64,000 nucleotides of DNA, from positions 1 through 64,000 of the forward strand of contig NZ_JACIZD010000006.1 in NCBI RefSeq assembly GCF_014359565.1. Reading direction: 5' to 3'. The notes beneath the pieces were generated by a model. The model worked only from the letters and a program-made list of their open reading frames with translations, had not been told where the DNA came from and ran no database searches. Shown in pieces: positions 1,359 through 21,159 of this stretch. This DNA is from Immundisolibacter sp. (GTDB lineage Bacteria; Pseudomonadota; Gammaproteobacteria; Immundisolibacterales; Immundisolibacteraceae). The first letter of the stretch is position 1. Every line of letters starts with the position of its first letter. Position numbers and translations under genes: made by a program.

Positions 1359-1581
1359 CCGCGGGCCTCCTGGGTGTGCCGGCCCGGGATTCTATCCTCG
1401 CCCCGTGCCTGCGCCGGAATTTCGACGGTGTGTGTCACGCGCCGCCAGTCGGGCGTCGGAGTTCTGGCACACTGCCGCGTGTTTACATTCCGCCGCGGTC
1501 GGGCGGCAAGTCGATGGTAAATCGCGTGTGAGCAAGCAAATACAAGCCTTTGTTATTTTGGCGCCTTGTGTCTTCGGCGGT

Positions 1582-1597
1582 TGGCATACAAGCTGCT
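1582..1597 (+). promoter_or_regulatory. candidate sigma-54 promoter upstream of the GGDEF gene
   Basis: TGGCAT-N5-CTGCTT matches the -24/-12 sigma-54 pattern (TGGCAC-N5-TTGCA/T), with GG and GC exactly ten bases apart. It lies about 60 bp upstream of the diguanylate cyclase ATG, inside the roughly 300-bp divergent gap 1359-1655. No enhancer site was identified, and the second half has one mismatch. The rest of the gap shows only an AT-richer stretch and an AGGAC ribosome-binding site. Confidence 0.35.
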
Positions 1598-1655
1598 TTG
1601 GAAGCCCCCGACGCTGGACGGAATTCCGGCTGGCGAATCAGGGACATAACAGGAC

Positions 1656-2561
1656 ATGAAGCTGATCAATATTCTGTCCGATCACTCGCAGACGGCACCG
1701 GCGCAGGCGAAGCCGCTCCCCCGCAAACCGGTTGATCTGGCCCGTCACGCGCTCGAGCTGGCCGCGACCCTGTCGCGGCATCTCGATCTGGATGCGCTGA
1801 TCGATCACTTCTCGCGTCGGCTTGGCGAGGTCTTGCCGTACGACAGCCTCAGTTTCCGGCATGAGCTTGCCGGTCAATGGCATGCCATTGCTCACGGCTC
1901 GGGTGGTCGCCATTCCTGCACCTACCAGCTGCAGGTCGAGGAAGTACCGCTGGGCACGCTGCGCATCGCCCGCCGCCAGCGCTTCGAAGAGCCAGAACTG
2001 GCGATGCTGGAGCAGTTGATCGGCGTGATCGTCTATCCGCTGCGCAATGCTCTGCTGTACCGGCGTGCCCAGCATGACGCGGCCACAGACCCGTTGACCG
2101 GGCTTTCCAACCGGGGCGTTTTCGACGACGCACTGCCCCGCGAGATCAGCCGTGCCCTGCGGTATGGCACCCATTTGACGCTGCTGATGGTCGACGTCGA
2201 CAACCTGAAGCACATCAATGATCGGGCCGGGCACAGCGCGGGCGACCGGGCTCTGCAACAGGTGGCCGGCATGCTGCGGGCCGGTGTACGCGACTCGGAT
2301 CAGGTGTTTCGTTACGCCGGCGATGAGTTCGCCGTGTTGTTGGTCGGCGGCGACGCGACTACGGCGCGGGAAGTCGCCGAGCGCCTGCGCAGCCGCGTCG
2401 ACCAGCTGCCGGCGGATGCCGGCGCCGCCCGCCCGACGCTGAGCATTGGCCTCGCGCCCCTGCGCGACGCGGACAGCGGCCAGACCCTTTTCGAGCGAGC
2501 CGACAGGGCGCTGTACGCCGCCAAACAGGCCGGCCGCAACTGCGTGTGCAGCGCCGACTGA
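1656..2561 (+). CDS. diguanylate cyclase (AGDEF variant) with N-terminal GAF-like region
   Basis: A 301-residue soluble protein predicted to make cyclic di-GMP from two GTP. Residues about 25-135 form a GAF-like sensory region with no membrane segment. Residues about 140-298 are a complete GGDEF domain (DPLTGLSNRGVFDD, DVDNLKHIND, then RYAGDEF at 219-225). The signature is AGDEF rather than GGDEF, a variant tolerated in some active cyclases. An inhibitory I-site R212-x-x-D215 sits at the usual distance, so product feedback is likely. The ATG follows AGGAC. The gene ends seven bases from the convergent isochorismatase gene. Confidence 0.88.
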   Translation: MKLINILSDHSQTAPAQAKPLPRKPVDLARHALELAATLSRHLDLDALIDHFSRRLGEVLPYDSLSFRHELAGQWHAIAHGSGGRHSCTYQLQVEEVPLGTLRIARRQRFEEPELAMLEQLIGVIVYPLRNALLYRRAQHDAATDPLTGLSNRGVFDDALPREISRALRYGTHLTLLMVDVDNLKHINDRAGHSAGDRALQQVAGMLRAGVRDSDQVFRYAGDEFAVLLVGGDATTAREVAERLRSRVDQLPADAGAARPTLSIGLAPLRDADSGQTLFERADRALYAAKQAGRNCVCSAD

Positions 2562-2567
2562 GTCGGT

Positions 2568-3128
2568 TCAGGCAATCCCCAGGAACTGCCGTGCGGTCCG
2601 GCAATCCACGCCGATGGCGGCCATGTCCGCGATATTGGCCTGCGCCACGGCGTCCGTCTGGGCGGAACACGCGTCCGTCACCAGCGTGACCGCGTAATCC
2701 AGGCACACCGCGTCCAGCACAGTGGCGCGGATGCAGTTCGGGTACTGCGTGCCGCTGACCACGAGTTCATCCACGCCCAGTCTGCGCAGCAGCAGGTCCA
2801 GCGGTGTGCCCATGAAGGCGCTGAAGCGCGGCTTGATCAGCACATGTTCGCCCGGCACAGGGGCGAGCTCGTGCACGATCTGCGCGCCCGGTGAGCCCGG
2901 CAGCAGGTACTGTGGCCCGCGCAGGAATGCGTCTCGCCGAAACGCCTCGACGTCGCTGCCATCCGCCCGGTAGGCACGGGTGATGTGCAGCACCGGCCAA
3001 CTTCGCGCGCGAAACGCGTCGAGCAGGCGGCGAATGGTCGGCACCGTGGCGAGCGCCCCCGCCACCGTCACTGGGCTGTCGGGTAGCACGAAATCGTTCT
3101 GCATGTCGATGATGAGCAGTGCGCGCAT
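2568..3128 (-). CDS. isochorismatase-fold cysteine hydrolase
   Basis: A 186-residue member of the isochorismatase/nicotinamidase superfamily of C-N hydrolases. The expected triad is visible: Asp8 in LLIIDMQNDF, Lys99 in LIKPRF, and Cys132 in GTQYPNCIRATVLDA. The start MRALLIID was chosen because the sequence upstream belongs to the amidase. It lies 13 bp downstream of the amidase stop, so the two are very probably co-transcribed as the last genes of a long minus-strand run. The substrate is not evident: nicotinamidase, biuret hydrolase and carbamoylsarcosine amidase all share this fold. A small amide or imide released by the upstream enzymes is plausible. Confidence 0.85.
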   Translation of the reverse strand: MRALLIIDMQNDFVLPDSPVTVAGALATVPTIRRLLDAFRARSWPVLHITRAYRADGSDVEAFRRDAFLRGPQYLLPGSPGAQIVHELAPVPGEHVLIKPRFSAFMGTPLDLLLRRLGVDELVVSGTQYPNCIRATVLDAVCLDYAVTLVTDACSAQTDAVAQANIADMAAIGVDCRTARQFLGIA

Positions 3129-3141
3129 GTCGGACTGGCGG

Positions 3142-4596
3142 TCAAAGTCCGTCCGGGATCGTCGCCAGCTCGCCGCGCGCGTGCTCGAAGGCGTGCGCCA
3201 GCGCCAGCAGCCGCCCCTCGCTGAACGCCGGGCCGATGAAGCTGATGCCCACCGGCGTGCCGTCGTCGGCAAAGCCCGCCGGTACCGTCACGGCCGGGTA
3301 GCCGGCCTTGCCGGTCAGCTTGGCGGCCACGCCACCCGGCGTCAGCAGCGCATCGAGCCCGTACTGCCGGCACACGGCGTCGACGCCGAGCTCGCGTGTG
3401 AGCGTGATATCCCGTAGGCGGTCGGTGTGGTACGCGGGGTCATCGAGGCCATTGGTGCGCTCGGCGTTCTCCGCCAGTGCCTGACCGTAGGCGAGGCACT
3501 GGCCTGGATGCGCGGCATTGAAGGCGATGATGTCGGCCAGCGTGCAGACGGGCGCTGCATCGCCTTGGCTCGCCAAAAAGGCATTCAGGCCGACCTTGAA
3601 CTCGCGGGCGAACACGCTGGAGCGAAGGCGGGCGACCTCCTGAGCGGTGGGCACATCGGCCGGATCGACGATGATGGCCCCGGCCGCGCGCAACGTGGCG
3701 ATGGCCTCTTCGATAATTTCCTCGGCCGCTTCCTGACCGGGTCGGCCGAAATAGACCTGTCGAGGCACACCGATACGTGCCCCACGCAGCGCATGCGGAT
3801 CAAGGAATCGTGCGTAATCGGCTTGGATGTGCGGCGCCGCGCTCAGCGTGAGGCTGTCGCCCAGGTCCACGCCGGCCAGGGCTGACAGCAGCAGTGCCGC
3901 GTCCGCGACGCTGCGGGTGAGTGGCCCTGCCGTATCCTGACTCATGGCGAGCGGCACAACGCCAGTGCGACTGACCAGACCAACGGTGGGTTTGAGACCC
4001 ACCACGCCGGACTGGCTGGCCGGCGTCTGGATGGAGTTCTGCGTCTCGCTGCCAATGGCCGCGGCACACAGCCCGGCTGCCACCGCGCAGGCCGGCCCGA
4101 CGCTGGAGCCGCCGCCGCGGTCGTAACGCTTGCCGTAAGGATGGCGCACCACGCCACCGGCGGAACTGAACTCGGACGGCATCACGTCGCCCAGATAGTC
4201 AGCGAACTCGGTCATGTTGCATTTGCCCAGAATTACCGCGCCCGCCACCCGCAGGCGGCGCACCAGCTCGGCATCCTGACGTGGCCGCAGATCGGCCAGG
4301 GCCAGCGAGCCGGCCGTGCAGGCCATGCCGTCGCCGGTGGCGATGTTGTCCTTGAGCAAAACCGGAATACCGTGCAGTGGGCCGCGCACCAGGCCGGCGC
4401 GCCGCTCGTCGTCCAGGCTGCGGGCGGTGTCCAGCGCCTGCGGGTTGACCTCCCGCACGGCGTTCAGCGCCGGTCCGGCGTGATTCAGCGCGCCGATGCG
4501 GTCCAGGAAGTGCTGTGTCAGTTCACTCGCGCTCAGCCGGCCATCCACCATCGCCCGGCCGAGCTCGGCGATGCCTTGGGTGTGCCACATGGTCAT
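3142..4596 (-). CDS. amidase-signature family hydrolase
   Basis: A 484-residue amidase-signature enzyme hydrolysing a C-N amide bond through a Lys / cis-Ser / Ser triad. Lys82 (LLKDN), Ser164 in GGGSSVGPA and Ser188 in SETQNSIQTPAS have the family spacing. The residues before the nucleophile read TQN, not the usual TGG or TDG, while downstream GVVGLKPT is conserved. The start overlaps the stop of the dehydrogenase upstream as ATGA (4593-4596), a classic translational-coupling arrangement. It sits between the dehydrogenase and the isochorismatase-fold hydrolase. It is not part of a GatCAB operon: no gatB or gatC is nearby. Substrate unknown. Confidence 0.87.
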   Translation of the reverse strand: MTMWHTQGIAELGRAMVDGRLSASELTQHFLDRIGALNHAGPALNAVREVNPQALDTARSLDDERRAGLVRGPLHGIPVLLKDNIATGDGMACTAGSLALADLRPRQDAELVRRLRVAGAVILGKCNMTEFADYLGDVMPSEFSSAGGVVRHPYGKRYDRGGGSSVGPACAVAAGLCAAAIGSETQNSIQTPASQSGVVGLKPTVGLVSRTGVVPLAMSQDTAGPLTRSVADAALLLSALAGVDLGDSLTLSAAPHIQADYARFLDPHALRGARIGVPRQVYFGRPGQEAAEEIIEEAIATLRAAGAIIVDPADVPTAQEVARLRSSVFAREFKVGLNAFLASQGDAAPVCTLADIIAFNAAHPGQCLAYGQALAENAERTNGLDDPAYHTDRLRDITLTRELGVDAVCRQYGLDALLTPGGVAAKLTGKAGYPAVTVPAGFADDGTPVGISFIGPAFSEGRLLALAHAFEHARGELATIPDGL

Positions 4597-5612
4597 GGCG
4601 TCTGGTCGAGGCTCAGTCGGCGACCTTCGCGGGCTGACTGGCGAATGGCGTCGATCACCCGCGCGGCGGCGAGCCCGGCCCCGCCAGGCACCGGCGGCTC
4701 GGTGCCGGCTCTCAGAGCCTCGCTGAAAGCGGCTAATTCCAAGTGATAGGGACCGGCGGCGGGCAGTTCGAGCGGGCACTCAGTTAGGCCCTGGTCGCCG
4801 CCGGCAAGCAGCCGGCCCCAGGTGCCGATGCCGATGGTGTTCTCGCCCACCACGCAGCCCTGTTCTCCGTAAAAAGCAAGTTCGCTGCGCGGGGCGGTGA
4901 CGGCGGTAGAGCAGGTCAGCGTGGCCAGCGTACCGCAGGCAAAGTGCAGAACCGCCGAGCAGGTATCTTCGGTTTCGTAGCCATACGCGCCGTTATCCAT
5001 CTGCGCCTGCACCCGGGACACGGGGCCCAGCAGCCACAGCAGCAAATCGACCAGGTGCGTGCCCAAGTCCGCGGTGGCCCAGCCACCGCCGGCGGTGGAC
5101 AGGTGACGGCGCCATTCGGACGGTGGAAATGGATAGCGGAAACACGCTTGGACATGCGCGTAGGCAATCCGCCCCAGTTCGCCAGTGGCGATTCGGCGGG
5201 CCATTTCCTGATGCACCGGGTTGAAACGCATCTGGTAGCCCACCCCGAGCTTGACGCCCGCATCCTGGCATGCCTGCAGCGCGCGCTGCGCGTCCGCTGC
5301 GGTGGGAGCGAGCGGCTTGTCGCACAGCACATGTTTGCCGGCGGCGGCGCAGGCCAGCACGTCAGCCACGTGCCTGTCGTTGGGGGTTGCAATGAATACC
5401 GCGTCGAGTTCCGGATCGGCAAGAAACTGCTGCAAATCAGAATAAGGTCGGGCCTCGTAAGGCGCACAAAAACGCGCAGCGCGTTCCGCATCGCGGCTGC
5501 AGGCACTGTGCAAGCGCGCGCCCGGCAGCGCAGCCAGCGCAGGAGCGATCGCGTCGCTGCTTATCCAGCCGCAGCCCAGAATACCCCAGCGTACAGGTTT
5601 GGTTTGATTCAC
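4593..5612 (-). CDS. Gfo/Idh/MocA family NAD(P)-dependent oxidoreductase
   Basis: A 339-residue two-domain dehydrogenase. The N-terminal Rossmann fold begins WGILGCGWISSDAI, and the family lysine motif appears as CDKPLAPTAADA near residue 97 (DKP in place of the common EKP). The C-terminal alpha/beta domain carries the dimer sheet and substrate site. Members oxidise or reduce sugars, inositols or other hydroxy compounds. It is coupled by ATGA overlap to the amidase. About 105 bp separates it from the flavin monooxygenase upstream. That gap contains a short GC stem (5665-5684) with no T-run. Confidence 0.85.
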   Translation of the reverse strand: MNQTKPVRWGILGCGWISSDAIAPALAALPGARLHSACSRDAERAARFCAPYEARPYSDLQQFLADPELDAVFIATPNDRHVADVLACAAAGKHVLCDKPLAPTAADAQRALQACQDAGVKLGVGYQMRFNPVHQEMARRIATGELGRIAYAHVQACFRYPFPPSEWRRHLSTAGGGWATADLGTHLVDLLLWLLGPVSRVQAQMDNGAYGYETEDTCSAVLHFACGTLATLTCSTAVTAPRSELAFYGEQGCVVGENTIGIGTWGRLLAGGDQGLTECPLELPAAGPYHLELAAFSEALRAGTEPPVPGGAGLAAARVIDAIRQSAREGRRLSLDQTP

Positions 5613-5717
5613 GGATTCCCCACTACGAAACTACGAATAACGACGTTCGGCGACTGACCCTTCGGGCGGGCATTGTTTCCCGCCGGGAGGGCGCCAAAAG
5701 GACTCTTCGTCTCGATA

Positions 5718-6785
5718 TCAGAGGAAGGCTGGCATTACTGACCGCGCGAACAGTTCCTGCGTGCGATACGCCTTCCAGGGTGCGATGTCGCCATAATGGC
5801 TGACGATATTGAACTCGTTGAACTTCACCTTGGCATGGAAGTCCTCGAGCTTGCGGGTGATCTGGGCGGGCGTACCGACCCAGACCATTTCGCGCTCCAG
5901 GAGTTCCTCGTAGCTGAAATGACGCATGCCCTGCAGCAGATCACTGGCATAAAAGCCATACCCGCTGTTTTTGAGCCGCTCCTTGAGGGCTTCGTCCCCG
6001 AGCAGCGAATCGTGCGGACGGATGTTGAATTCGTAGAAATTCAGAATGGCATCGCGCGCTTCACGATGCGCGGTATTCTCGTCATCGGCAAGGAATACGC
6101 CGCGTATATAGCCGAAGTCGGGCTGGGTGCCATACTGCACGCAGGCCTTGCGGTAAGTTTCAATACTGGACTCAAATACCTCGAATGGCGCTGGCCCGCC
6201 GCAGCAGATACCCCAACCACGCTCGGCCGCCTGCGTGAAAGCCTGGCCGCTGGTGCCGGTCATATAAATTTTTGGATAGGGCCGCTGCAAGGGCTTCGGA
6301 ACCACGGACACGTTATCCACGTTGTAATAGTTGCCGTGGTAGCTGAAGCGTTCCTCGCTCCACGCCAGGTGCAAAATGTCCAGTGATTCCCGGTAACGCT
6401 GCTGACTTTCTTCCATGGGAATGCTGAGCGGCTCGTAGAGCCAGCCATGTCCCCGACCAACGCCAATTTCAAGACGGCCGTCGGTGAGAATGTCTGCTTC
6501 TGCTATTTCGCCCGCCAGCACGATTGGGTTGTGCAATGGCAAGGTATGACACAGAGTCCGAAAGCGCAGTTGCCGCGTGCGCTGTGCGGCCGCGCTGAAC
6601 ATTGCCAATGGATTGGCGGAAATGCCAAAGCTCGGAAAACAGTGGTGCTCGATCAAGCTGAATACCGAGTAGCCTAGGCTATCGGCGTGCTCCATCAAAC
6701 GAAAAACCTCCCAGATCAGATCGGCGTGGGGCTTTTCGGGCGCGGTTTGCATTTCGCAATAAATACCGAAACGTAGGTCGGACAT
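5718..6785 (-). CDS. LLM-class flavin-dependent monooxygenase
   Basis: A 355-residue bacterial-luciferase-like TIM-barrel oxidoreductase expected to use FMNH2 and O2. Recognisable blocks are FSLIEHHCF near residue 45, the long LAGEIAEADILTDGRLEIGVGRGHG segment typical of the family, and VWVGTPAQITRKLEDF near the C-terminus. The ATG is preceded by GGGAG at good spacing. It is one of two oxygenases in this gene run, the other being the Rieske protein. No flavin reductase is encoded nearby, so reduced flavin must come from elsewhere. Substrate unknown. Confidence 0.88.
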   Translation of the reverse strand: MSDLRFGIYCEMQTAPEKPHADLIWEVFRLMEHADSLGYSVFSLIEHHCFPSFGISANPLAMFSAAAQRTRQLRFRTLCHTLPLHNPIVLAGEIAEADILTDGRLEIGVGRGHGWLYEPLSIPMEESQQRYRESLDILHLAWSEERFSYHGNYYNVDNVSVVPKPLQRPYPKIYMTGTSGQAFTQAAERGWGICCGGPAPFEVFESSIETYRKACVQYGTQPDFGYIRGVFLADDENTAHREARDAILNFYEFNIRPHDSLLGDEALKERLKNSGYGFYASDLLQGMRHFSYEELLEREMVWVGTPAQITRKLEDFHAKVKFNEFNIVSHYGDIAPWKAYRTQELFARSVMPAFL

Positions 6786-6847
6786 ATCGTCTCCCTTGAA
6801 TTAGCGGTGCTCGGATCAGCACACGATGATTTACATGCGTAATTTGG

Positions 6848-7336
6848 TCAAAGCCCGGTTCGCGGATTAAGACCCCACGGCTGGTCGAACGGCGTCGCAA
6901 GTCGAACATTCAGGCGTACATGATGGAAGTACCAGCGCTCGTCGCGGCGGATGAAGGTGGCATCGTAAGTGCCACCACACCAAACCGAAGTCGGCTCGCT
7001 ACCGGTGCTGGCCACCGTGGCGGTTTCCCACAGGTACCAGCTGCCCCGCGCGCAGTCGCCATCAAGATCAACGGTTGGTGAGACCATGTAGTGCAGTGTC
7101 CACAGAATCTGCTTTTGTGCGGTTTCGGACAGGGCCTTGGCTATCGTCTCGCGGCCTTCGAAACGGCCAAAGCCCTCACATTCCCACACGCCGTCTTCAG
7201 CAAACAGGGGTCCCATGATGGTCGGGTCGTTCTTGCGGTCAGCGCCGATGGCGTAGCGACCGATCAGGCCGCGGATGGCCTCCATATCCTGCAGCTGCCG
7301 CAGTTGCGCGGCCAAGGCCGCCAGTTGCTGTTCCAT
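6848..7336 (-). CDS. NTF2-like (SnoaL-type) small protein
   Basis: A 162-residue cone-fold protein of the SnoaL_4/NTF2-like type. The N-terminal helix EAIRGLIGRYAIGADRKN is followed by FAEDGVWECEGFGRFEGRETIAKAL, and the C-terminal strand WYFHHVRLNVR closes the cone. Members are ring-hydroxylating-dioxygenase beta subunits, cyclases, isomerases or dehydratases. With a Rieske alpha subunit three genes upstream in the transcript, a beta-subunit role is possible but unproven. It starts 10 bp after the unrecognised 123-residue gene. Confidence 0.75.
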   Translation of the reverse strand: MEQQLAALAAQLRQLQDMEAIRGLIGRYAIGADRKNDPTIMGPLFAEDGVWECEGFGRFEGRETIAKALSETAQKQILWTLHYMVSPTVDLDGDCARGSWYLWETATVASTGSEPTSVWCGGTYDATFIRRDERWYFHHVRLNVRLATPFDQPWGLNPRTGL

Positions 7337-7346
7337 GGGCGGCCCC

Positions 7347-7718
7347 TCATGCACTGGCGTAGATATTGCCGAGGTAGTTGGGCACGGCCCCATGGTCTGC
7401 GACGAAGCGTTCCTCCTCGAAACTGTATGGCACCCTGGGGTTGCCACGATATAGCTCTACATGAGGTGCCACTTCGGCCAGCGACAAAGTCAGATAGAGC
7501 AGCCGCGCCTGCGGCGGCGGCATGTCCCCCAGCGGGAAGGTATTCAGGTGCGCGATGATGGCTTCCATCTGGCCGACCATGGCGTCGTAAAACGCCTGCA
7601 GGTCGGCACTGCTGCTGGCGCGCCTTGCAGCCTCGCGAGCGTTCTGGGTATCGAGCGCCCAGCGCTCCACCCAGCATTCGAGTTCGGAAAAAGCTTCTGG
7701 CAGTACGCTTTCGGTCAT
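7347..7718 (-). CDS. unrecognised 123-residue protein in the oxygenase operon
   Basis: No family was recognised. It is predicted soluble and acidic, with helical segments (EAFSELECWVERWALDTQ; LQAFYDAMVGQMEAIIAHLNTF) and a C-terminal part containing HVELYRGNPRVPYSFEEERF. It has no signal peptide, membrane segment or cysteine cluster. ATG 7718 was chosen because AGGAG lies 8 bp upstream; an in-frame GTG at 7727 would leave no room for a ribosome-binding site. It is tightly placed between the Rieske gene (41 bp) and the NTF2-like gene (10 bp), which argues for a role with the oxygenase, for example as an accessory or chaperone. Confidence 0.72.
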   Translation of the reverse strand: MTESVLPEAFSELECWVERWALDTQNAREAARRASSSADLQAFYDAMVGQMEAIIAHLNTFPLGDMPPPQARLLYLTLSLAEVAPHVELYRGNPRVPYSFEEERFVADHGAVPNYLGNIYASA

Positions 7719-7759
7719 GAGAATCACTCCTTTGGTTCCGCAAACGCGCGTGTAGGCCT

Positions 7760-8950
7760 CTAGCCGTTGACGTAATCATCAACGGCCTTGTAGCCGTGGC
7801 GAATTAGAATTTCATGGTCCTGCAGATGCATGAATTTTTTGGCGCCGGACTTCAATGCGGCATGCGTGGCTTCCATCGTGGCGGTGTCCTCCAGCCAGGC
7901 ATTGCGTTGCAACACCTGCCCATACTCGTGGCTGAAGCGTTCGCCGGCGTTTTGCGGGGGACGGAAATACTGGATTCCCTCCCACAGCGTCTTGTCGACC
8001 GCGATCGGCTCGAACTGGTGCGTGAAATACAGGCCATCCATGACGTGGACCAGAAAATTTGGAAACAACACGGCCAAGTCGAACGCAAATGTCGGGTCGC
8101 GGCGCGGATTGATTCGCGGCGGCAACTCGGTCCGTGCGCCGGGCTTGGCGATGGAAGACGTGCCTAGGCGATGGGCAAGACTAGCGACCGGCGTCGGTTT
8201 GGGGCCTTTCTCGGTCATGTATATGGCGCTGCTGCGATGAGGGCCGAACAGCTCGACGTCCCAGATCTTGGCCGCGAAGCCGTCCGGGAACGAGCCAGCG
8301 TGAATGGTGGACACGTGATAGGCCTCCGAAAAGGCATCCTGCGCCACCTTCCAGTTACAGTTCAGGACTGTGCGGTAGCTGTAGACAGCGGTCATTTCGC
8401 CAAACGGAAAGCCACTGTAGCGTGTGCCGGCCTCGCCCAGAAAATCCTCAAGCGACTGAGGCGGCTGCGGATCAAGGTGGGCGAATACAAAGCCCTCCCA
8501 GACCTGCACCGCTACCGGTGTCAAGCCGTTGTCGCAGCGCTTGAAGCTGTCAAAAAACTCTTCCTCCTGCGGCACATCGGTCAACTGACCCTGGGTGTCG
8601 TAGGTCCAACCGTGAAAGTGGCAGAAAAAGCTGCGGCTGCGGCCGCGGCCTTCTTCCGCCCATATCACGCGGTTACCACGATGCGAGCAGGTATTGTGAA
8701 ACCCCCTGATTCGGTTATCGTTTCCACGCACAAGAATGATGGTTGTGTCCCAGATGGGCATCGGCTTGAGCTTCCATGAGCCAGGTCCACTGAATTCCTC
8801 TATGCGACCAACCTTTAACCACACACGCTTGAACAACTTTTCTTTCTCGCGATGAAAATATTCATCGGAAATGCAGGGATCAACTGGAACGGGGTCTGTC
8901 CCCAAGTTCGGGAAGGTGCGAGCCCAGACATGATCGGCCAATTTATTCAT
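7760..8950 (-). CDS. Rieske non-heme iron oxygenase, alpha subunit
   Basis: A 396-residue aromatic-ring-hydroxylating-type oxygenase. The Rieske [2Fe-2S] ligands are C88-x-H90 (CSHRGNRV) and C110-x2-H113 (FFCHFHGW). The mononuclear iron site has H212 and H217 (AYHVSTIH), with D355 as a candidate carboxylate ligand. The residue expected to bridge the two centres, Asp in most family members, is Glu209 (SEAYHV). AGGAG precedes the ATG. No ferredoxin or reductase gene is present in the window, so electron donors are encoded elsewhere. The product could be a cis-diol, a hydroxylated or a demethylated compound. Confidence 0.9.
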   Translation of the reverse strand: MNKLADHVWARTFPNLGTDPVPVDPCISDEYFHREKEKLFKRVWLKVGRIEEFSGPGSWKLKPMPIWDTTIILVRGNDNRIRGFHNTCSHRGNRVIWAEEGRGRSRSFFCHFHGWTYDTQGQLTDVPQEEEFFDSFKRCDNGLTPVAVQVWEGFVFAHLDPQPPQSLEDFLGEAGTRYSGFPFGEMTAVYSYRTVLNCNWKVAQDAFSEAYHVSTIHAGSFPDGFAAKIWDVELFGPHRSSAIYMTEKGPKPTPVASLAHRLGTSSIAKPGARTELPPRINPRRDPTFAFDLAVLFPNFLVHVMDGLYFTHQFEPIAVDKTLWEGIQYFRPPQNAGERFSHEYGQVLQRNAWLEDTATMEATHAALKSGAKKFMHLQDHEILIRHGYKAVDDYVNG

Positions 8951-9005
8951 GATAAATCTCCTTCGGTAGGGTCAATAAGACCGATGTGATCGACATTGCG
9001 CGGGT

Positions 9006-10280
9006 CTAGTTCATGCCATCTTTCCCAGCTGCGAATGTAGACAGAATATTTGCACTAAAATTTTCTTCTTTTAAGGTGGGGTCGTTAATTTTATAATTCT
9101 GCGAATCAATATAGGTGGCCCTCTCAAACTGAAAATCAATTGCCTGAGTGTGAGTAAAGCCCAATCCCGGATATCCGTCAACGCTTTTAATTGGCGCATA
9201 GGATTGCCGCCAAATTCTCCAGAATTGCCCCTTCTTGTCATAAATTTCGGACAGAACGAAAGTTGGAAAGCTCGTTTCCATATAAAGAGTTTTTTTGCCG
9301 TACGGGTGCTCGGCGGGAGGAGTTGCTTCGATCACATAAACTTCCCGGGGCTCCCACTCGACGTTGATCGGGTTCCAATAGGGTGGTTGCATGTCGAGCC
9401 GATCTTTGAGTTCGTGTGGCAGATTGGGGTCGGGCGCATGCATTACGGCAAGAAGCCAGCGTTTTTCGATCAACTTAAAATCCTTATACCACAATGGCCA
9501 TGCGTCAATCCCCTGATTGTCATCGTTAAGCAGGTCCATTTGCGGCTGAGGATCCATCCATACGCCACTACCGGACACTCGACGCACTCGCCGAAGGGAT
9601 TTTACGTACACCCAAACATCGTCTGGGCGCCCATCCGCATATTGCATTTGGAAATTACCTATGCCGGCAACGTCGTACGGCTTGCTAAGGGCTAGTACCA
9701 ATCGAATGTGCTCCAGCCCGCTGCCCAATTTGGAATCGGTGCCTGTATAACGGCCGCTCATGCGAAAACGATAGTTGCTTCCACGCAAGCTCCTGATTAC
9801 GCCATCTTTTTTTGCGGTAATGGCGATTGGCGCATCGGCGATCCAGACATCTGGAATGACTGGGTTCGCAAGTCGGTGATTCCAGATCAGTTTATATGCC
9901 GCGTTGGGGTCAGTCATGTCCACGGTTGGAAATGGAATGCCGGCCACATGCCCAGTCACGGTTTTCGAAGCAGGGTCAAAGATCGCCTTCCCGGAATTCT
10001 GATTGGTTGCTGCTATGTATCTTGGGTCCAGCTCAATAGTTTCATGACGACGCAATGGCATTTTGAGGCCGTGGTTACGAACCCACATCGCCATTTGTCC
10101 GGTGAGCAAGTCCTTGATTTTATGGCCTTCAAATGTATCCTCCCAAACGGCGTCAATGTTGCTGGATTCGATAACGAATCCTGGGGGTAACTCTTTGGCA
10201 TTAGCTGTCGCTGAGCTCATGCCAATCATGGCTAGGGCCAATGAAGTGGTGGTGCGGAGAGACGGCCATATCGTTTTCAT
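9006..10280 (-). CDS. DUF1329 outer-membrane-associated protein
   Basis: A 424-residue secreted protein with an N-terminal signal peptide (cleavage probable after SATANA). It belongs to the DUF1329 family, which has a LolA/LolB-like fold and is almost always paired with DUF1302, as here. Typical blocks are a GQMAMWVRNHG segment, tryptophan-rich DDVWVYVKSLRRVRRVSG, and the C-terminal WRIWRQSYAP. Pairs of this type are repeatedly found near catabolic genes for hydrophobic compounds and are thought to help move such compounds across the outer membrane. It is noticeably AT-rich: the line 9061-9120 is 35% GC by count. Confidence 0.88.
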   Translation of the reverse strand: MKTIWPSLRTTTSLALAMIGMSSATANAKELPPGFVIESSNIDAVWEDTFEGHKIKDLLTGQMAMWVRNHGLKMPLRRHETIELDPRYIAATNQNSGKAIFDPASKTVTGHVAGIPFPTVDMTDPNAAYKLIWNHRLANPVIPDVWIADAPIAITAKKDGVIRSLRGSNYRFRMSGRYTGTDSKLGSGLEHIRLVLALSKPYDVAGIGNFQMQYADGRPDDVWVYVKSLRRVRRVSGSGVWMDPQPQMDLLNDDNQGIDAWPLWYKDFKLIEKRWLLAVMHAPDPNLPHELKDRLDMQPPYWNPINVEWEPREVYVIEATPPAEHPYGKKTLYMETSFPTFVLSEIYDKKGQFWRIWRQSYAPIKSVDGYPGLGFTHTQAIDFQFERATYIDSQNYKINDPTLKEENFSANILSTFAAGKDGMN

Positions 10281-10336
10281 GAGATATAAAACTCCAAGTC
10301 AGTGAGGTTCGGTGGTTCGCTTTGCGTGTGTGTTGG

Positions 10337-11851
10337 CTAGAATTGATATGTCACTCTTGCGACCAGCTGGTTGTTGTTGTCAAACGTGCCAAAGGTGTGC
10401 GTGCAACCCAGCCCCTTTCCCGAGGGCGATGTCGAGCACGTGTCCTGACTTTTGTAAAATAAATACGTTTCGCCCTTGATGCGCCAATGGTTGCCGGGCT
10501 TGTATTCGATTCCGGGGATAACCACCCCTCCACCATAGCTTACGTCATGAATCAAGACCAGTGAAGGCGATAGGGAATCATGGCGAAAATTCATGGAAAA
10601 TAGCGCCGTTCCTACGATGGAATGCTCTTTCTTTCTGGCGGTGAAATCGGTGATCTGGTCGGATCGGTCGTAGTCGACAATCCAGGTATCAAAGAGCTGT
10701 AAAGTGAGCTGCGGGGGACCGCTGGTTTGCGGGCCGATAGAGCGTATGGATCGATCATATCCAAGCATGAGGCGAGCCGTGTCTTTTTCGATCACGCCGC
10801 CGGCACCGGCATTGGGCGTGCCGATCAGGCCAAAGTTATAGGGCTTGTTCGGGGTATAGGCTATCTCAGAACGCCAGACTCCGCCCCATATTGGGCCACT
10901 CACTGTTCCGCCAAAAATGTCTACATCGGGGAAAATGAATTCCCCTAGTCCGTTTTTAGGGGCGTTTCCGTATGGATTGCCAATGAAATTCAGAACCGCC
11001 TCCTGCTGCATTGTGTGATAATAGTTGAGGGAATAGGTCAGGTTGCTGATGTCGCCGACCCAGCGCGCACCGTAGGATGGATCATCCTCGTCGCCTTTTT
11101 CATGATGGAAATTGTAGGGAAAGATGCGCAAGGTGTTGGTGCCCTTGTTAGGCTGGCCAGCCCAACGGCCACCGAACAGATCATAGGTGTTTCCCATATC
11201 TGAACCACTGTCTAATCCAGGACGTATCACCGCCTGTAGTGAGCCATTCCATTCAAATATGGAGTATTCGAGATTGACTAGCCACAAGGGCTTTCGCCAC
11301 TCTTCGTTTTCGGCTTGAAACTGGACGATGCTATTGTCGTAACCGTGGATTACGTCCATGGCTTGAAAGAAGTCTGTCTCGCCCCACACCACCTGTTGCT
11401 TGCCAAGACGCAGGCGGAGGCGCTCCGTGAGGTTTGCGTCCATGTAAAGCTCACGCAGTTCGTCGGCGTCGTAGTGTTCGAGCAGATCCACTGGCGTACC
11501 TTTTGCGTCGGCTGCATCCTCCAGATCATCCAAGTAGCCCGTGTTGGCCTCTCGGGAAAAACGTCCGATTGCTACCCAATTGGTTGGTCCAAGTTGCGTT
11601 TGTAACTGCAGCAAGGTGCTGAAGCGGGCCATGCTGAGGTCGCCTTTTCCGTCTACCGGTTTGCCGTCGGCGCCGAGTTCCGGATGGTCTTGCAGGTTCA
11701 TGGCGAACCATCCGCGCGCATAGCCGGTGAGGTTCAGCTCGACCTCGGGAGAAAGTTCCAGGGTGATTGAATTTGCGGACGAAGACGCGGCAATCATGAC
11801 TGCGCATATGGCTAGCGGACGAATGGGCGTTGCGGTCGGACCTGGCTTCAT
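10337..11851 (-). CDS. DUF1302 outer-membrane beta-barrel protein
   Basis: A 504-residue protein with a signal peptide (cleavage likely near SSSANS). It has a porin-like pattern of alternating strands ending in the aromatic C-terminus RVTYQF, the usual signal for outer-membrane barrel insertion. Family features seen are LTGYARGWFAMNLQ, LGKQQVVWGETDFFQAMD and repeated short amphipathic strands. It is the first gene of the run and 56 bp upstream of DUF1329; the pair is a recurrent unit of a hydrophobic-substrate uptake or efflux system. GGGAG lies at good distance from the ATG. A sampled line (10861-10920) is 53% GC. Confidence 0.88.
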   Translation of the reverse strand: MKPGPTATPIRPLAICAVMIAASSSANSITLELSPEVELNLTGYARGWFAMNLQDHPELGADGKPVDGKGDLSMARFSTLLQLQTQLGPTNWVAIGRFSREANTGYLDDLEDAADAKGTPVDLLEHYDADELRELYMDANLTERLRLRLGKQQVVWGETDFFQAMDVIHGYDNSIVQFQAENEEWRKPLWLVNLEYSIFEWNGSLQAVIRPGLDSGSDMGNTYDLFGGRWAGQPNKGTNTLRIFPYNFHHEKGDEDDPSYGARWVGDISNLTYSLNYYHTMQQEAVLNFIGNPYGNAPKNGLGEFIFPDVDIFGGTVSGPIWGGVWRSEIAYTPNKPYNFGLIGTPNAGAGGVIEKDTARLMLGYDRSIRSIGPQTSGPPQLTLQLFDTWIVDYDRSDQITDFTARKKEHSIVGTALFSMNFRHDSLSPSLVLIHDVSYGGGVVIPGIEYKPGNHWRIKGETYLFYKSQDTCSTSPSGKGLGCTHTFGTFDNNNQLVARVTYQF

Positions 11852-11963
11852 TGCTGTTCTCCCTGGAGGTCGATGGGTATGAGTCGCTACGTGGTCAAGG
11901 CAGTGTCATGTCACGCGGGGACGAAGGCCGGTTTTGGTCGAGAACTAGTCAGTAACGTGAACG

Positions 11964-11991
11964 ATTGCATGGTGGGATAGGCCGAAGTCAA
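11964..11991 (-). promoter_or_regulatory. candidate sigma-70 promoter for the DUF1302-led gene run
   Basis: Read on the minus strand, TTGACT (11991-11986), a 16-bp spacer and TGCAAT (11969-11964) lie about 110 bp upstream of the DUF1302 start. The -35 is a 5/6 match and the -10 a 4/6 match. The surrounding gap 11852-12132 is AT-rich and otherwise holds only the hairpin at 12041-12081. Confidence 0.35.
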
Positions 11992-12040
11992 TTCAAAAAT
12001 GTATTTCATATTGGTTTAAGCATTTGGTGTGCCATGTTGT

Positions 12041-12081
12041 CGGCCGCCGCGACCGCTGGGCGGTTCGGGTCGCAACGGCCG
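12041..12081. other. 14-bp inverted repeat downstream of aceB
   Basis: The arms 12041-12054 and 12068-12081 pair over 14 positions on the minus strand, two of them G-T, with a 13-base loop. It lies about 50 bp beyond the aceB stop and has no T-run, so it could be an RNA-stabilising hairpin or a factor-dependent terminator separating aceB from the catabolic genes. Confidence 0.45.
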
Positions 12082-12132
12082 GGTATGCAGCGCGGAAACT
12101 CAAGCGCAGGCTTACTTTTACGGAAATCGTTT

Positions 12133-13752
12133 TTAATTTTTATCGTTCGTTAATGCGTCGTACGCCTGCAGGGTGAGGAACTCGTGGAAGTATTGGTCGA
12201 AGACTAAGTGGTCAAAAATGGTGCGCGCTTGCCTTAGCGCGGTGCGCCCTAGTGGCGAGAGGGTGGGCGCGAGGTCCGCGCATGCGCGGTCGGCTAGTTC
12301 GGTGACCGAGGCCAGGGTTATGGGGTTGTGGGTGTCGGTCGAGGCGCCGTGATGAATCCACTGCCACAGCTGGGCGCGGGCGATTTCTGCTGTGGCGGCG
12401 TCTTCCATCAGGTTGTTGATGGCCACCGCGCCGGAGCCTTGCAACCAGGCGGTCAGGTACTGCAGCGACACATAGACGTTGTTGTGCACCCCTGCGTCGG
12501 TGATGGTGGCGCCGGGTACGTGGACGTCGAGCAGCTGTTGGGCAGTGACGGCAACCTCGGGTCTTTGGCGCCGCAATTGATTGTCTGCAGGCCCGAGCTT
12601 CGTCTCGAAGACGTCCAGCGCGACCGGAACCAGATCCGGGTGTGCCACCCAGCTACCGTCAAAGCCGTCGTCGGCCTCGCGCTGTTTGTCCGCTCGCACC
12701 GCGGCCAGGGCGCGCTCTGTGACTTGGGCGTCGCGCCGGTTCGGAATGAACGCGGCCATGCCGCCGATGGCGTGAATACCGCGTCGGTGGCACGTTTGAA
12801 CCAGCAGCTCGGTGTAGGCACGCATGAACGGTACGGTCATCGTGACCTGTGCGCGGTCGGGCAACAGAAAATCGGCGCGGCTGTTGAACTTCTTGATGAT
12901 GCTGAAGATGTAATCCCAGCGACCCGCGTTCAGGCCCACGATGTGTTCGCGCAGTGCGTAGATGATTTCGTCCATCTCCAGCGCCGCCAGGACGGTCTCG
13001 ATCAGCACTGTTGCCCGAATGCTGCTTCGGGGCAGCCCGAGCCGGTCTTCGGTGAAGTCGAAAACCTGGTTCCACCAGGCCGCCTCGTGGTTGCTTTCAA
13101 GCTTGGGCAGGTAGAAATAGGGCCCGCTGTCCCTGGCCAACAGTTCCTGGGCGTTGTTGAAGCAGTACAGGCCAAAGTCGAACAACGCGCCTGCAACCGG
13201 TGAGCCGTCTACGAAGAAATGGCGCTCAGGCAGATGCAGCCCGCGCGGACGCACAACCAGAGTGGCTGTGCTTGGCTTGAGGCGGTATTCGGGCCCGCCT
13301 TCCTGCTGGTAGCGGATGGTCCTGCGCACCGCGTCCATGAGGTTTACCTGGCCCTGCAGGCAGTTGTCCCATGTGGGTGCGTTGGCGTCCTCGAGGTCCG
13401 CCATGAAGACTTTGGCGCCTGAATTGAGCGCGTTGATCATCATCTTGCGCTCCACCGGCCCGGTGATCTCGATTTTTCGGTTCTGCAAGTCGGCTGGCGC
13501 GGGGTTTGCTTGCCACTGTGCCGCCCGCAGGTCCTGCGTCTGCGCTGGGAAGTCCGGCAGGTAGCCTGCGTCGAACTGCTCCTGGCGTCGCGCCCGCACA
13601 GCAAGTAGTTCCAGCCGCGAGGCATCGAAACGCCGGTGTAGTTCGGCGACAAACTGCATGGCCGATGGGTTCAGGGCATCGGCATAGGAAGCCTTCCAGT
13701 CGCCGCGAAGATCGACGCCTGCCGGTACGGGCGGGATTGTAACTTTGTTCAT
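12133..13752 (-). CDS. aceB: malate synthase A
   Basis: A 539-residue glyoxylate-bypass enzyme condensing acetyl-CoA with glyoxylate to malate (EC 2.3.3.9), close in length to E. coli AceB (533). The family signature GLNAGRWDYIFSIIKKF is followed by the conserved TVPFMRAYTELLVQTCHRRG and IGGMAAFIPNRRD blocks; EITGPVERKMMINALNSGAKVFMADLEDA is the barrel region. The start MNKVTIPPVP was preferred over longer in-frame options that run into the promoter. No isocitrate lyase gene lies in the window. It is divergent from an IclR-type regulator, which is the obvious candidate to control it. Confidence 0.95.
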   Translation of the reverse strand: MNKVTIPPVPAGVDLRGDWKASYADALNPSAMQFVAELHRRFDASRLELLAVRARRQEQFDAGYLPDFPAQTQDLRAAQWQANPAPADLQNRKIEITGPVERKMMINALNSGAKVFMADLEDANAPTWDNCLQGQVNLMDAVRRTIRYQQEGGPEYRLKPSTATLVVRPRGLHLPERHFFVDGSPVAGALFDFGLYCFNNAQELLARDSGPYFYLPKLESNHEAAWWNQVFDFTEDRLGLPRSSIRATVLIETVLAALEMDEIIYALREHIVGLNAGRWDYIFSIIKKFNSRADFLLPDRAQVTMTVPFMRAYTELLVQTCHRRGIHAIGGMAAFIPNRRDAQVTERALAAVRADKQREADDGFDGSWVAHPDLVPVALDVFETKLGPADNQLRRQRPEVAVTAQQLLDVHVPGATITDAGVHNNVYVSLQYLTAWLQGSGAVAINNLMEDAATAEIARAQLWQWIHHGASTDTHNPITLASVTELADRACADLAPTLSPLGRTALRQARTIFDHLVFDQYFHEFLTLQAYDALTNDKN

Positions 13753-13825
13753 GTTTGGCCTTTTGGTAGGGGGGCGTGTGTGGGAACTGCGGGGTACGCC
13801 CATGTTCATGACACGAGCGAGCTGA

Positions 13826-13853
13826 ACTCTACGTCGCACTGTTTTGTTGTCAA
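13826..13853 (-). promoter_or_regulatory. candidate sigma-70 promoter of aceB
   Basis: On the minus strand a perfect TTGACA (13853-13848), a 16-bp spacer and TAGAGT (13831-13826) stand about 75 bp upstream of the aceB ATG, within the 211-bp divergent region shared with the IclR-type gene. An operator for that regulator would be expected here; I saw no clear palindrome. Confidence 0.5.
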
Positions 13854-13963
13854 TAGGCGAAGTAATATTCCATTTGACGAAAAACTTAGCTTTGGATCGG
13901 TACCAAGGCGCGGGCCGATGCGATACTTCACAGCAGCTCGTCCGCGGATGGAGACCGCACGAT

Positions 13964-14809
13964 ATGGAAAACAATGGCCATACGGCCGAAATCCAAACCG
14001 TTTCAACGCCGTCCCGCGCCGGCCGGCGACGTAGTGCCAGTGCTGCGCAGAGGGGGAGCGTGCGGGCGCTCGAACGGGGCTTGGCTCTGCTCGAGGCCCT
14101 GGCGCAGGCACCTCATAACAACCTGAACGACCTGGCGCAGCGGGTGAAGTTGCCGGCCAGTACCGCGTTTCGTCTGCTGGATACGTTGCAGAAGCAGGGG
14201 TTCGCCACCCAGTCCGAGCAAACAGGCCAATACCAGCTGGGTGTGCGTGCGTTTGAGGTCGGCAGCGCCTTCGTGCCGCGTCTGCAACTGAATGACGTTG
14301 CGCTTCCCGTCATGAAGGCACTGATGCAGGAGGTTGGCGAGACGGTGAACCTGGCCATCCGGGATCAGGCCGACGCGGTCTATATTGCCCAGGTCGAAAG
14401 CCAGCAAATGCTGCGCATGTTCACGCGCCTGGGTGCCCGTACACCGGCTTATTGCAGCGGCGTCGGCAAGGTGTTGCTGGCGTGGTTACCGCTGACCAGC
14501 GTCCGCAGTTTGCTGGGTGTCGGCCCATGGCCGGCCTTCAGCCCCGGCACTATCACCGCGTTTGACGTCCTGGAGCGCGAACTGATCAAGATTCGGCATC
14601 TTGGTTATGGAATGGACAACGAGGAGCGGGAAGTGGGGGTGCGCTGCATAGCGGTGCCGATTACGGACGCCAGCGGCGGCGTGGCTGCCGCACTCAGCCT
14701 GTCAGCACCATCGGTGCGTTTTTCGCAGGAACGGGTGCAGCGCACCATTCCGTTGATCGTCGCCGCGGGCCAGAAGATTTCCGAGCAACTTTGTTTGGCT
14801 GCCAGGTAA
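13964..14809 (+). CDS. IclR-family transcriptional regulator
   Basis: A 281-residue regulator. The N-terminal winged helix-turn-helix (about residues 30-95) includes SVRALERGLALLEALAQAP and LPASTAFRLLDTLQKQGF, followed by an IclR effector-binding domain (YCSGVGKVLLAWLP; MDNEEREVGVRCIAVPI). ATG 13964 was chosen with GGAG about 10 bp upstream; longer in-frame starts extend into the shared promoter region. Divergence from aceB suggests it controls the glyoxylate bypass, with glyoxylate or pyruvate-like effectors as in E. coli IclR. That link is inferred from position. Confidence 0.88.
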   Translation: MENNGHTAEIQTVSTPSRAGRRRSASAAQRGSVRALERGLALLEALAQAPHNNLNDLAQRVKLPASTAFRLLDTLQKQGFATQSEQTGQYQLGVRAFEVGSAFVPRLQLNDVALPVMKALMQEVGETVNLAIRDQADAVYIAQVESQQMLRMFTRLGARTPAYCSGVGKVLLAWLPLTSVRSLLGVGPWPAFSPGTITAFDVLERELIKIRHLGYGMDNEEREVGVRCIAVPITDASGGVAAALSLSAPSVRFSQERVQRTIPLIVAAGQKISEQLCLAAR

Positions 14810-14834
14810 CGTGGTTTGGCTGCCAGGTAACGTG
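14793..14834 (+). repeat. two perfect tandem copies of a 21-bp unit across the IclR stop codon
   Basis: Bases 14793-14813 and 14814-14834 are identical and adjacent. The first copy contains the last codons and TAA stop of the regulator gene; the second repeats them just downstream. It looks like a recent slippage duplication with no effect on the protein. Confidence 0.9.
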
Positions 14835-14916
14835 GGGTATTTAAAGACTCACTTTCCCGGCTTGCCGGCCGTGGGGTACATGATGAAATATTCAGCGCTC
14901 CGCTGAGCGTTACAAG

Positions 14917-14980
14917 CCCTCGGAAAAGCCCGCCTTTCCGAGGGCGGGCGCCGAGAAATCCAGCAGGGATTTCTCGGCGC
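14917..14980. terminator. paired hairpins between convergent genes
   Basis: Two stem-loops lie in the 200-bp gap between the convergent IclR and sensor-kinase genes. The first (14917-14944) has a 10-bp stem. The second (14948-14961 with 14967-14980) has a perfect 14-bp stem around a five-base loop. Neither has a T-run, so they may act as factor-dependent terminators or mRNA 3' protectors for both directions. Confidence 0.5.
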
Positions 14981-15007
14981 TCCCACGACGGATCGGGCGT
15001 CGATCAG

Positions 15008-16360
15008 TCAGCCGGCTGGCAGACGCACCGTGACCCGCGCCCCGCCCAGGCGCGGCGAGTCGTCGATGTCGAGGCTGCCGCCGTAGGCGATGGCGATGTC
15101 GCGCACCACGGCAAGGCCGATGCCCTGGCCGGCAACGCGCCGGTCGGCGCGGGCACCGCGCTCCAGGACCGCCTCGCGCAGCGGCGGCGGCACGCCGGGG
15201 CCGTCGTCCTCGAGCGTCAGTTCCAGATTGCGCGGGGCAATCCCGTCGTCGCCGGTCGGCTGCACGCTCAGCCACACCTGCCGTTCGCACCACTTGTAGG
15301 CGTTGTCGAGCAGGCAGCCGAGCAGTTCGTACAGGTCACCCGCGTCGCCGGCGAACTGTACGCCGTGCGGGTCGTCCAGTTCCGCGGCCACGCCCTTGTC
15401 GGCATAGACCTTGTCCAGGCCGGCCATGATGCGGGCGGCTACCTGCGCCACGCCCACTGCGGCGGTGAACGCGGTGCGGCCGGAGGCAGCGGCACGCCGT
15501 GCCTGGTAGGCCAGCGAGGCGTCGATGGCGTCGACGGCGTCGGTCAGCAGGCGCTGCTGGGCCGGCGACACATCGGCCGCGGCGTTGCGTAGCACCGCCA
15601 GCGGCGTCTTGATGCTGTGGGCCAGGTCCGCCAGCGCGTTTCGCTGGCGCAACAGCTGCGCGCGTTCGTGGCGCAGCAGCGCATTCAGGCCGTCCGTGAG
15701 CGGCAACAGTTCGGCCGGATAGCGGCCGGCCAGATCGTCGCGCTCGCCGCGTTCGATGACCCGCAGGTCGTCCGCCACCTGCCGCAGCGGACGCAGGCCC
15801 CAGCGCACGATCAGCATCTGCGTCAGCAGCAGCAGGCCGGCGGCGCCGCCCAGCCACAGCATCAGCGTGGTTTCGAACTGGCCGATCTCGGCCGCCAGCT
15901 CGTCCAGGCGCGCGGCGGTGGAAAACGTGAACTGCTGCGCTGCGCCGCCCTGCACTTCCCAGCCGACGCCGAAGCTGTACGCCAGCAGCGTCTCGCCGTC
16001 GGCGCGTACGCGGGTCCAGGATTCACGTCCCGGCGCGAGGCCGCGCACGAACGGCAGATTCAGTCCCACCGACGAGGGCGAGCGCCACAGCACCTTGCCG
16101 TCGCGGGCGCTGACTTCGGCGTAGCGCCCGGAGCCGGGCACTTCGAGCCGGCTTTCGGGCAGATCCTGGGGTAGTTCCAGCGTGCCGCGCCGCAGCTCGG
16201 CGGCCGACAGTAGGGCGTAGATGTCGGTTTTCAGCCGGGCCCGCAGGGCGTTTTCGGCACTGTCGCGATAGGCCCGGTCCAGCGCCACCGCGGTGGCGCC
16301 CAGGAATACCGCCAGCACCAGCAGCGACGACAGCAGCAGGCGGCGCCGGATCGACCCCAT
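15008..16360 (-). CDS. PhoQ-like membrane sensor histidine kinase
   Basis: A 450-residue kinase with two membrane helices (about 8-28 and 165-185) enclosing a roughly 135-residue periplasmic sensor. A short HAMP-like linker follows, then the phospho-acceptor His248 in ADLAHSIKTPLAVL, the N box (LGCLLDNAYKW), G1 (LEDDGPGVP) and G2 (GQGIGLAVV). Layout and H-box resemble PhoQ. The ATG directly follows the TGA of the response regulator, so the two are translated as a unit. The envelope genes upstream in the same orientation suggest an envelope stress or cation signal. Confidence 0.9.
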   Translation of the reverse strand: MGSIRRRLLLSSLLVLAVFLGATAVALDRAYRDSAENALRARLKTDIYALLSAAELRRGTLELPQDLPESRLEVPGSGRYAEVSARDGKVLWRSPSSVGLNLPFVRGLAPGRESWTRVRADGETLLAYSFGVGWEVQGGAAQQFTFSTAARLDELAAEIGQFETTLMLWLGGAAGLLLLTQMLIVRWGLRPLRQVADDLRVIERGERDDLAGRYPAELLPLTDGLNALLRHERAQLLRQRNALADLAHSIKTPLAVLRNAAADVSPAQQRLLTDAVDAIDASLAYQARRAAASGRTAFTAAVGVAQVAARIMAGLDKVYADKGVAAELDDPHGVQFAGDAGDLYELLGCLLDNAYKWCERQVWLSVQPTGDDGIAPRNLELTLEDDGPGVPPPLREAVLERGARADRRVAGQGIGLAVVRDIAIAYGGSLDIDDSPRLGGARVTVRLPAG

Positions 16361-17038: not shown

Positions 17039-17050
17039 GTCGGTGCTCGC

Positions 17051-17551: not shown

Positions 17552-17579
17552 GGTGCTGTCCCGCGCCCGGCGCGGGCGC

Positions 17580-18119: not shown

Positions 18120-18145
18120 GTCATATCCTCCACGCACCCGTCGTC

Positions 18146-18487: not shown

Positions 18488-18615
18488 GGCATATCCCTCC
18501 ACGGGGATTCGCTGCGGGGCCCATCCCCGCTGCGTGAGGCCACCTTAGGACCCGTTGCCTGAACGCACGCTGAACGCCCGTTTCATCCCCGAAATCCCGG
18601 TCGGAGTCTTTGCGC

Positions 18616-19410: not shown

Positions 19411-19465
19411 CAACGGGGTACATCGACCGCCGAGAACGGACAACAAACCAGGGAGGAGCAATCCG

Positions 19466-21067: not shown

Positions 21068-21096
21068 GCGGCCGGACCGCCGGGCGGCGCCCGGAT

Positions 21097-21159
21097 GTGG
21101 GAGGCCCGCCCCGGGCCGAATGCTTGATTCGAGGATTCGCGGCGGGGCGCCGCTCCCAC
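21097..21159. repeat. REP pair, family A (copy 1)
   Basis: Two adjacent palindromic units with GTGGGAG heads in inverted orientation: one starting GTGGGAGGCCCG and ending CCGAATG, the other the complement of GTGGGAGCGGCG...CGCGAAT. It fills the gap between the GMC and SDR genes. The layout is that of a BIME (paired REPs). Confidence 0.75.

Follow-up and report, generated by a model that had tools for sequence, protein, structure and literature searches.

We analysed a run of nine minus-strand genes (positions 2568-11851) in the first 64 kb of contig 6 (NZ_JACIZD010000006.1) from the 3.09 Mb genome of Immundisolibacter sp. (GCF_014359565.1); this stretch of 64,000 nucleotides is referred to as the window. 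Four of the nine genes, encoding a Rieske non-heme iron oxygenase alpha subunit, a protein of 123 residues (p123), a SnoaL_4/NTF2-like protein and an LLM-class (luciferase-like) flavin monooxygenase, very probably constitute a conserved system, and the run as a whole is a mosaic and not one inherited unit. The constituent enzymes belong to known superfamilies. The most unusual component is p123, which an earlier interpretation made from the sequence alone (the sequence-only reading) had passed over. We see an even chance that p123 is a new Rieske oxygenase component, small, all-helical and specific to a clade of Rieske oxygenases with a bridging glutamate, and that the four-gene module is an undescribed oxidative route for a nitrogen-containing aromatic compound with interchangeable flavin oxygenase and amide hydrolase.

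The open reading frame listing of the window, the Pfam matches and the intergenic distances agree with the number, families and tight spacing of the genes given in the sequence-only reading. From low to high coordinates, all on the minus strand, the run comprises an isochorismatase-fold cysteine hydrolase (186 residues, 2568-3128, PF00857), an amidase-signature hydrolase (484 residues, 3142-4596, PF01425; NF005300 above cut-off) that likely hydrolyses an amide or lactam, a Gfo/Idh/MocA oxidoreductase (4593-5612, PF01408), the LLM protein (355 residues, 5718-6785, PF00296), the SnoaL_4 protein (162 residues, 6848-7336, PF13577), p123 (7347-7718, no family match), the Rieske protein (396 residues, 7760-8950, PF00355 and PF00848), a DUF1329/LolA-like protein (9006-10280, PF07044) and a DUF1302 outer-membrane protein (10337-11851, PF06980). 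Going from isochorismatase to DUF1302, neighbouring genes are separated by 13, -4, 105, 62, 10, 41, 55 and 56 bp, the negative value being an ATGA overlap between the amidase start and the Gfo/Idh stop. A gap of 281 bp then separates the run from a putative malate synthase on the same strand (12133-13752), and the count of nine genes depends only on taking this gap as the boundary. Separate promoters had been named as a finding that would split the run. In a sequence scan, promoter- and terminator-like sites were no commoner within the run than in shuffled sequences, so that the sequence neither splits the run nor proves a single transcript.

The alignment of p123 homologues was too diverse for a scan of the whole genome collection, and a profile of the LLM protein was used instead. 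Among 84,980 species genomes this profile retrieved 32 loci, 13 of which contain the Rieske, p123 and SnoaL_4 genes in this order with the LLM gene adjacent or next but one. These 13 loci belong to another genus of the same family (Immundisolibacteraceae NORP326, L118), to Binatota-type genomes (six loci: L122, L123, L125, L126, L129 and L149), to Myxococcota (L119) and to Gammaproteobacteria represented by sponge-type metagenome-assembled genomes (MAGs; five loci: L127, L128, L133, L137 and L146). The position of the LLM gene varies: it precedes the Rieske gene in Binatota, is divergent in the five Gammaproteobacteria and follows the SnoaL gene in Immundisolibacter. In NORP326, the four core genes are accompanied by a divergent isochorismatase gene.

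The association of p123 with Rieske oxygenases extends beyond this module. The source genome contains 48 matches to the Rieske catalytic domain (Ring_hydroxyl_A) and a second genome of the genus (G002) contains 65, in genomes of only 3.1-3.2 Mb; each of the two encodes eight p123 proteins, paired one to one with eight Rieske genes. Across nine genomes, the p123 search gave 73 hits. For 62 of them a listed Rieske gene was found at a distance of up to 1.6 kb (up to 200 bp for 55), without exception on the same strand; contig ends, or Rieske genes beyond the scoring limit of that search, may account for the other 11. Several Rieske/p123 junctions are ATGA overlaps of 4 bp. The p123-linked Rieske proteins form a single clade, with support in the Shimodaira-Hasegawa-like approximate likelihood ratio test of 100% in a tree of 61 rows and of 98% after addition of plasmid members; one clade member sits on a truncated contig. 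The Rieske and p123 trees have correlated pairwise distances (r = 0.87, 53 pairs), and none of 2000 permutations reached this value. In a sample of 369 Gammaproteobacteria genomes, p123 was present in seven. We consider p123 to be probably a functional partner of the Rieske protein.

No match to p123 was detected in Pfam-A, NCBIfam, PHROGs or the sequences of the PDB, and a scan of 27 p123 members against Pfam and NCBIfam gave nothing consistent. The AlphaFold2 model, calculated with a 23-sequence input, consists of six helices with a mean predicted local distance difference test (pLDDT) score of 85.7. Fold searches returned no PDB match at E < 3.5 and none at E < 2.9 in PDB and BFVD combined, which is no proof of a new fold. 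Residues W20, R28, R32, Y44, P67 and E88 are conserved. Conserved cysteines are absent from p123, which makes a role as electron carrier unlikely.

The Rieske protein of the window matches both of its Pfam domains above cut-off and retains the conserved 2Fe-2S ligands C88/H90/C110/H113 and a metal site formed by H212, H217 and D355. At the bridging position it carries a glutamate, E209, preceded by F207 two residues earlier, within a clade motif that reads DAFxExYH or a close variant. A bridging glutamate is found in 56 of 56 p123-linked clade members (one row read by eye) and an aspartate in 20 of 20 genomic Rieske proteins outside the branch.

The mosaic structure of the run became visible by comparison with the orthologous site in G002, a complete genome of the same genus (3,243,537 bp). 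The two sites are highly similar at the DNA level on both sides: 90.5% identity in window 1391-4590, which covers a GGDEF gene, the isochorismatase and the amidase, and 93.2% in window 15008-21111, from a sensor kinase onward. Between these flanks only the LLM-SnoaL-p123-Rieske block (5725-8914) is common to both, with 67-72% DNA identity. At the protein level, the core reaches 55-75% identity, compared with 93.0% for the isochorismatase and 89.6% for the amidase. The GC content at third codon positions (GC3) likewise marks the codon usage of the core as foreign: in the window it amounts to 0.82-0.84 for amidase and isochorismatase, 0.69-0.72 for the four core genes, 0.62 for DUF1302 and 0.54 for DUF1329, and in G002 the three core genes measured as whole genes (LLM, SnoaL and Rieske) have values of 0.88-0.90. 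The Gfo/Idh gene (window 4590-5725) is missing from the G002 site, where 13 bp separate LLM and amidase, and so is the block DUF1329-DUF1302-malate synthase-IclR (window 8914-15008), in which the malate synthase and the divergent IclR-type regulator (13964-14809, plus strand) are open frames assigned by reading the sequence. Most simply, the core was apparently replaced by its counterpart from a relative of lower GC content outside the genus, with Gfo/Idh and the DUF1329-to-IclR block inserted beside it. Six of the nine genes (isochorismatase, amidase, LLM, SnoaL, p123 and Rieske) thus stand in conserved order in G002, and the sequence-only reading had named at least six as support for a system.

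The three remaining genes of the run, DUF1302, DUF1329 and Gfo/Idh, are insertions specific to this genome. None of them is found in any of the 32 loci of the LLM-profile scan, and the 13 loci with the complete core contain no malate synthase homologue. Nine related genomes yielded no Gfo/Idh orthologue (best identity 29-34%), and this gene is probably outside the conserved system. DUF1329 is present in ten copies in the source genome, including this one, and its best relatives are 42-43% identical. The sequence-only reading of the run as one pathway is thus supported in part; its outer-membrane uptake pair and its dehydrogenation find no support as pathway steps.

For the SnoaL protein, a dehydratase or lyase function is likelier than a role as Rieske beta subunit. 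Its residues D33 and H82, an Asp-His dyad, are invariant in 15-16 relatives, and its AlphaFold2 model (pLDDT 88.8) finds BaiE, LdpA and LinA as best fold matches (E about 1e-10), members of a group whose enzymes use His and Asp as an acid-base pair (PMC11476836). It shares fold and dyad with these enzymes and with scytalone dehydratase but is only about 20% identical to them. A beta-subunit assignment was considered and rejected: SnoaL_4 (PF13577) was the only Pfam match, with none to the ring-hydroxylating beta family, the dyad is kept and the fold is of the BaiE type. The nearest solved relative of the LLM protein is RslO1 (7BIP, E 4.9e-30), for which epoxide formation has been proposed (PMC8093152).

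An amide hydrolase nearly always accompanies the module, and its family varies. An acetamidase/formamidase of the FmdA/AmdA type (PF03069) comes after SnoaL in the Binatota and Myxococcota loci and at all but one of the five gammaproteobacterial loci, and was not found in any Immundisolibacteraceae genome searched. Immundisolibacter has amidase and isochorismatase in its place, and more distant relatives have an asparaginase. Orthologues of the isochorismatase (60-93% identity) are present in all five genomes of the family with a module Rieske and missing from the other genomes searched. In the other genus the isochorismatase adjoins the module Rieske; in Immundisolibacter it lies in the same run, with the amidase between it and the oxygenases. 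The two oxygenations and the amide cleavage suggested previously are strengthened by these replacements. A second Rieske-p123-isochorismatase operon, located behind an acyl-CoA-synthetase-like gene on contig 12 of the source genome (L084, 8472-10739), keeps its order in two genomes of the genus, G002 and G001.

Further p123 homologues, 34-50% identical and placed directly after a Rieske gene, were detected on plasmids of Novosphingobium, Acinetobacter, Paroceanicella, Azospirillum, Rhodococcus and sphingomonads. On one Novosphingobium and two Acinetobacter plasmids the order is FmdA-Rieske-p123-SnoaL_4, and their Rieske proteins fall into the same subclade as that of the window; in the more distant Paroceanicella and Azospirillum it is Rieske-p123-cupins-SnoaL_4-ferredoxin-asparaginase. 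The flavin oxygenase is likewise interchangeable: the two Acinetobacter plasmids carry a StyA/IifC-like monooxygenase, a flavin reductase and a short-chain dehydrogenase/reductase in the LLM slot. Ferredoxin and reductase genes come next, a MetA-pathway porin gene lies upstream, and one of the two plasmids has cat genes nearby. A plasmid search with the LLM protein returned only distant LLM enzymes of about 30% identity. Other p123 homologues lie on hexachlorocyclohexane (lin) plasmids (L203, 6977-7339; L211, 5977-6339), where they adjoin linC and an EthD gene between IS6100 copies, with no adjacent intact Rieske gene. The Novosphingobium EMRT-2 plasmid carries two more pairs of a Rieske and a small hypothetical protein near its module (L200, 1585-3210 and 13555-15098).

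These observations lead us to propose, with moderate confidence, a modular pathway with exchangeable enzymes that acts on an N-heteroaromatic or N-acyl aromatic compound and in which p123 is dedicated to the Rieske protein; our confidence that the substrate contains nitrogen is slightly higher. The conserved module, the one-to-one association of Rieske and p123, the motifs and the exchange of hydrolase and flavin-oxygenase families are observed, and the substrate class, the order of the steps, the role of p123 and the assignment of each hydrolase to its target are predictions from sequence. The bridging-glutamate Rieske protein would hydroxylate the substrate, which would bear nitrogen and probably be N-heteroaromatic or N-acyl aromatic, using electrons from a ferredoxin and a reductase encoded elsewhere in the genome, and p123 would bind the Rieske alpha trimer and be needed for assembly, coupling or specificity. 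The Asp-His pair of SnoaL_4 could then carry out an acid-base elimination or lyase step, and LLM may insert a second oxygen, opening the ring or cutting a C-C or C-N bond. The product would be an amide, a lactam or an N-formyl compound, to be cleaved by the amidase and/or the isochorismatase.

An N-heteroaromatic, indole-type substrate is proposed mainly because the Acinetobacter plasmid modules sit with iif-type genes; the indole type in particular is tentative and rather doubtful. Among the neighbours on these plasmids are the IifC, IifD, IifB and IifE gene types of the iif/ind indole cluster of Acinetobacter and Cupriavidus (PMC6221969, PMC12538310, PMC10974035). In contrast to that cluster, the plasmid set is devoid of the dienelactone-hydrolase-like IifA, and the nine genes of the run include no StyA/IifC oxygenase with flavin reductase according to Pfam, an LLM enzyme standing in for the StyA-type oxygenase; the described iif clusters in turn have no Rieske, p123 or FmdA gene. 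The Rut pyrimidine pathway likewise combines an LLM enzyme (RutA) with an isochorismatase-fold hydrolase (RutB) in one locus, and illustrates how a ring may be opened oxidatively and an amide then hydrolysed. It differs in that it has no Rieske component, and in the window the RutB model scores 56.4 bits, compared with 377.95 needed, and RutA finds no match. Skatole breakdown via 2-formamidoacetophenone would account for a formamidase. A homarine/trigonelline route (LLM with formamidase) was also considered; the literature searched gave no link between Rieske, LLM and formamidase.

Several observations weigh against the proposed pathway and the role given to p123. Some of the LLM relatives among the 32 loci have no Rieske or p123 gene nearby. 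Two clade Rieske proteins in the genome G007 are without a nearby p123, and two sister Rieske proteins without p123 also carry the glutamate; the glutamate is therefore older than p123, and p123 may be dispensable. The correlated trees argue for a lasting partnership of the genes and not for binding, because operon inheritance alone produces such a correlation. The amidase and isochorismatase show a vertical-like identity to G002 (90-93%) that the core does not, and since the identities differ, it is by co-occurrence and adjacency that the two hydrolases are linked to the core. The combination of bridging glutamate and phenylalanine resembles quaternary-amine oxygenases, so that an N-heteroaromatic substrate need not follow. 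This resemblance leads to an unlikely but sizeable alternative, in which the Rieske protein is a group V quaternary-ammonium oxygenase (CntA/OxyBAC-like) and a betaine or quaternary N-heterocycle, not an indole-type compound, is degraded. In a profile alignment, E209 coincides with E205 of the carnitine monooxygenase CntA (CntA/YeaW), the bridging residue in inter-subunit electron transfer (PMC7948474), and F207 has, as judged from the alignment only, the same spacing to it as Y203, the clade Va cation-pi residue (PMC7948474). The alpha-only length is shared as well, CntA is the best PDB profile match and GbcA (NF058607) the best NCBIfam match. The GbcA score of 95.9 bits is far under its cut-off of 670, however, and the window protein stays below all curated group V cut-offs in NCBIfam. 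Unlike CntA/YeaW, it has p123 as partner and SnoaL, flavin monooxygenase and amide hydrolases as neighbours, and the plasmid modules adjoin aromatic (IifC-like, cat) genes that point to an aromatic substrate.

Two other explanations appear improbable to us. If p123 and SnoaL were not functional partners but small passenger genes that persist through inheritance of the operon, with SnoaL a degenerate Rieske beta subunit, this would fit the NTF2-like nature of such subunits and the lack of recognisable catalytic residues in p123. It would not fit the persistence of p123 beside the Rieske gene across phyla with its set of conserved residues, the match of SnoaL to SnoaL_4 with its dyad retained, or the fact that most Rieske-p123 pairs have no SnoaL. 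The reading of all nine genes as one operon and one pathway, in which DUF1302/DUF1329 take up a lipophilic amide and Gfo/Idh acts as dehydrogenase, agrees with the tight spacing on a single strand and with the lack of a clear internal terminator, and recent insertions can share a transcript. Yet these three genes are absent from the orthologous locus of the same genus and from all module loci elsewhere, and DUF1329 stands out by its ten genomic copies and its very different GC3.

Related loci were also noted. A paralogous operon Rieske-LLM-p123 without SnoaL is conserved in Immundisolibacteraceae (L095, 9921-12572, on contig C1 of the source genome; L098, L100, L101 and L045), and its LLM protein is 44-48% identical to that of the window. 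In Immundisolibacteraceae and related MAGs (L135, L136 and L148), a further LLM paralogue is directly followed by another isochorismatase-fold gene with no adjoining Rieske gene. The window itself contains a second foreign-looking block (33256-36677, GC3 0.57-0.73) with glycosyltransferase/polysaccharide-export-like genes by reading.

Ferredoxins, reductases and NTF2-fold beta subunits are known companions of Rieske oxygenases; to our knowledge, no small helical partner that follows one Rieske clade through several phyla has been described. In the literature searched, we found no description of the p123 family, of its pairing with bridging-glutamate Rieske proteins or of the module, and since coverage was partial an earlier description is possible. 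Should p123 be required for activity, attempts to express clade members heterologously in its absence would be unsuccessful; this may be the reason why no clade member seems to have been characterised. Immundisolibacter cernigliae carries unusually many copies of ring-hydroxylating oxygenases with largely unknown roles (PMC9535955). The module offers a testable pathway for nitrogen-containing aromatic compounds in sponge symbionts, Binatota, manure Acinetobacter and bacteria of soils containing polycyclic aromatic hydrocarbons.

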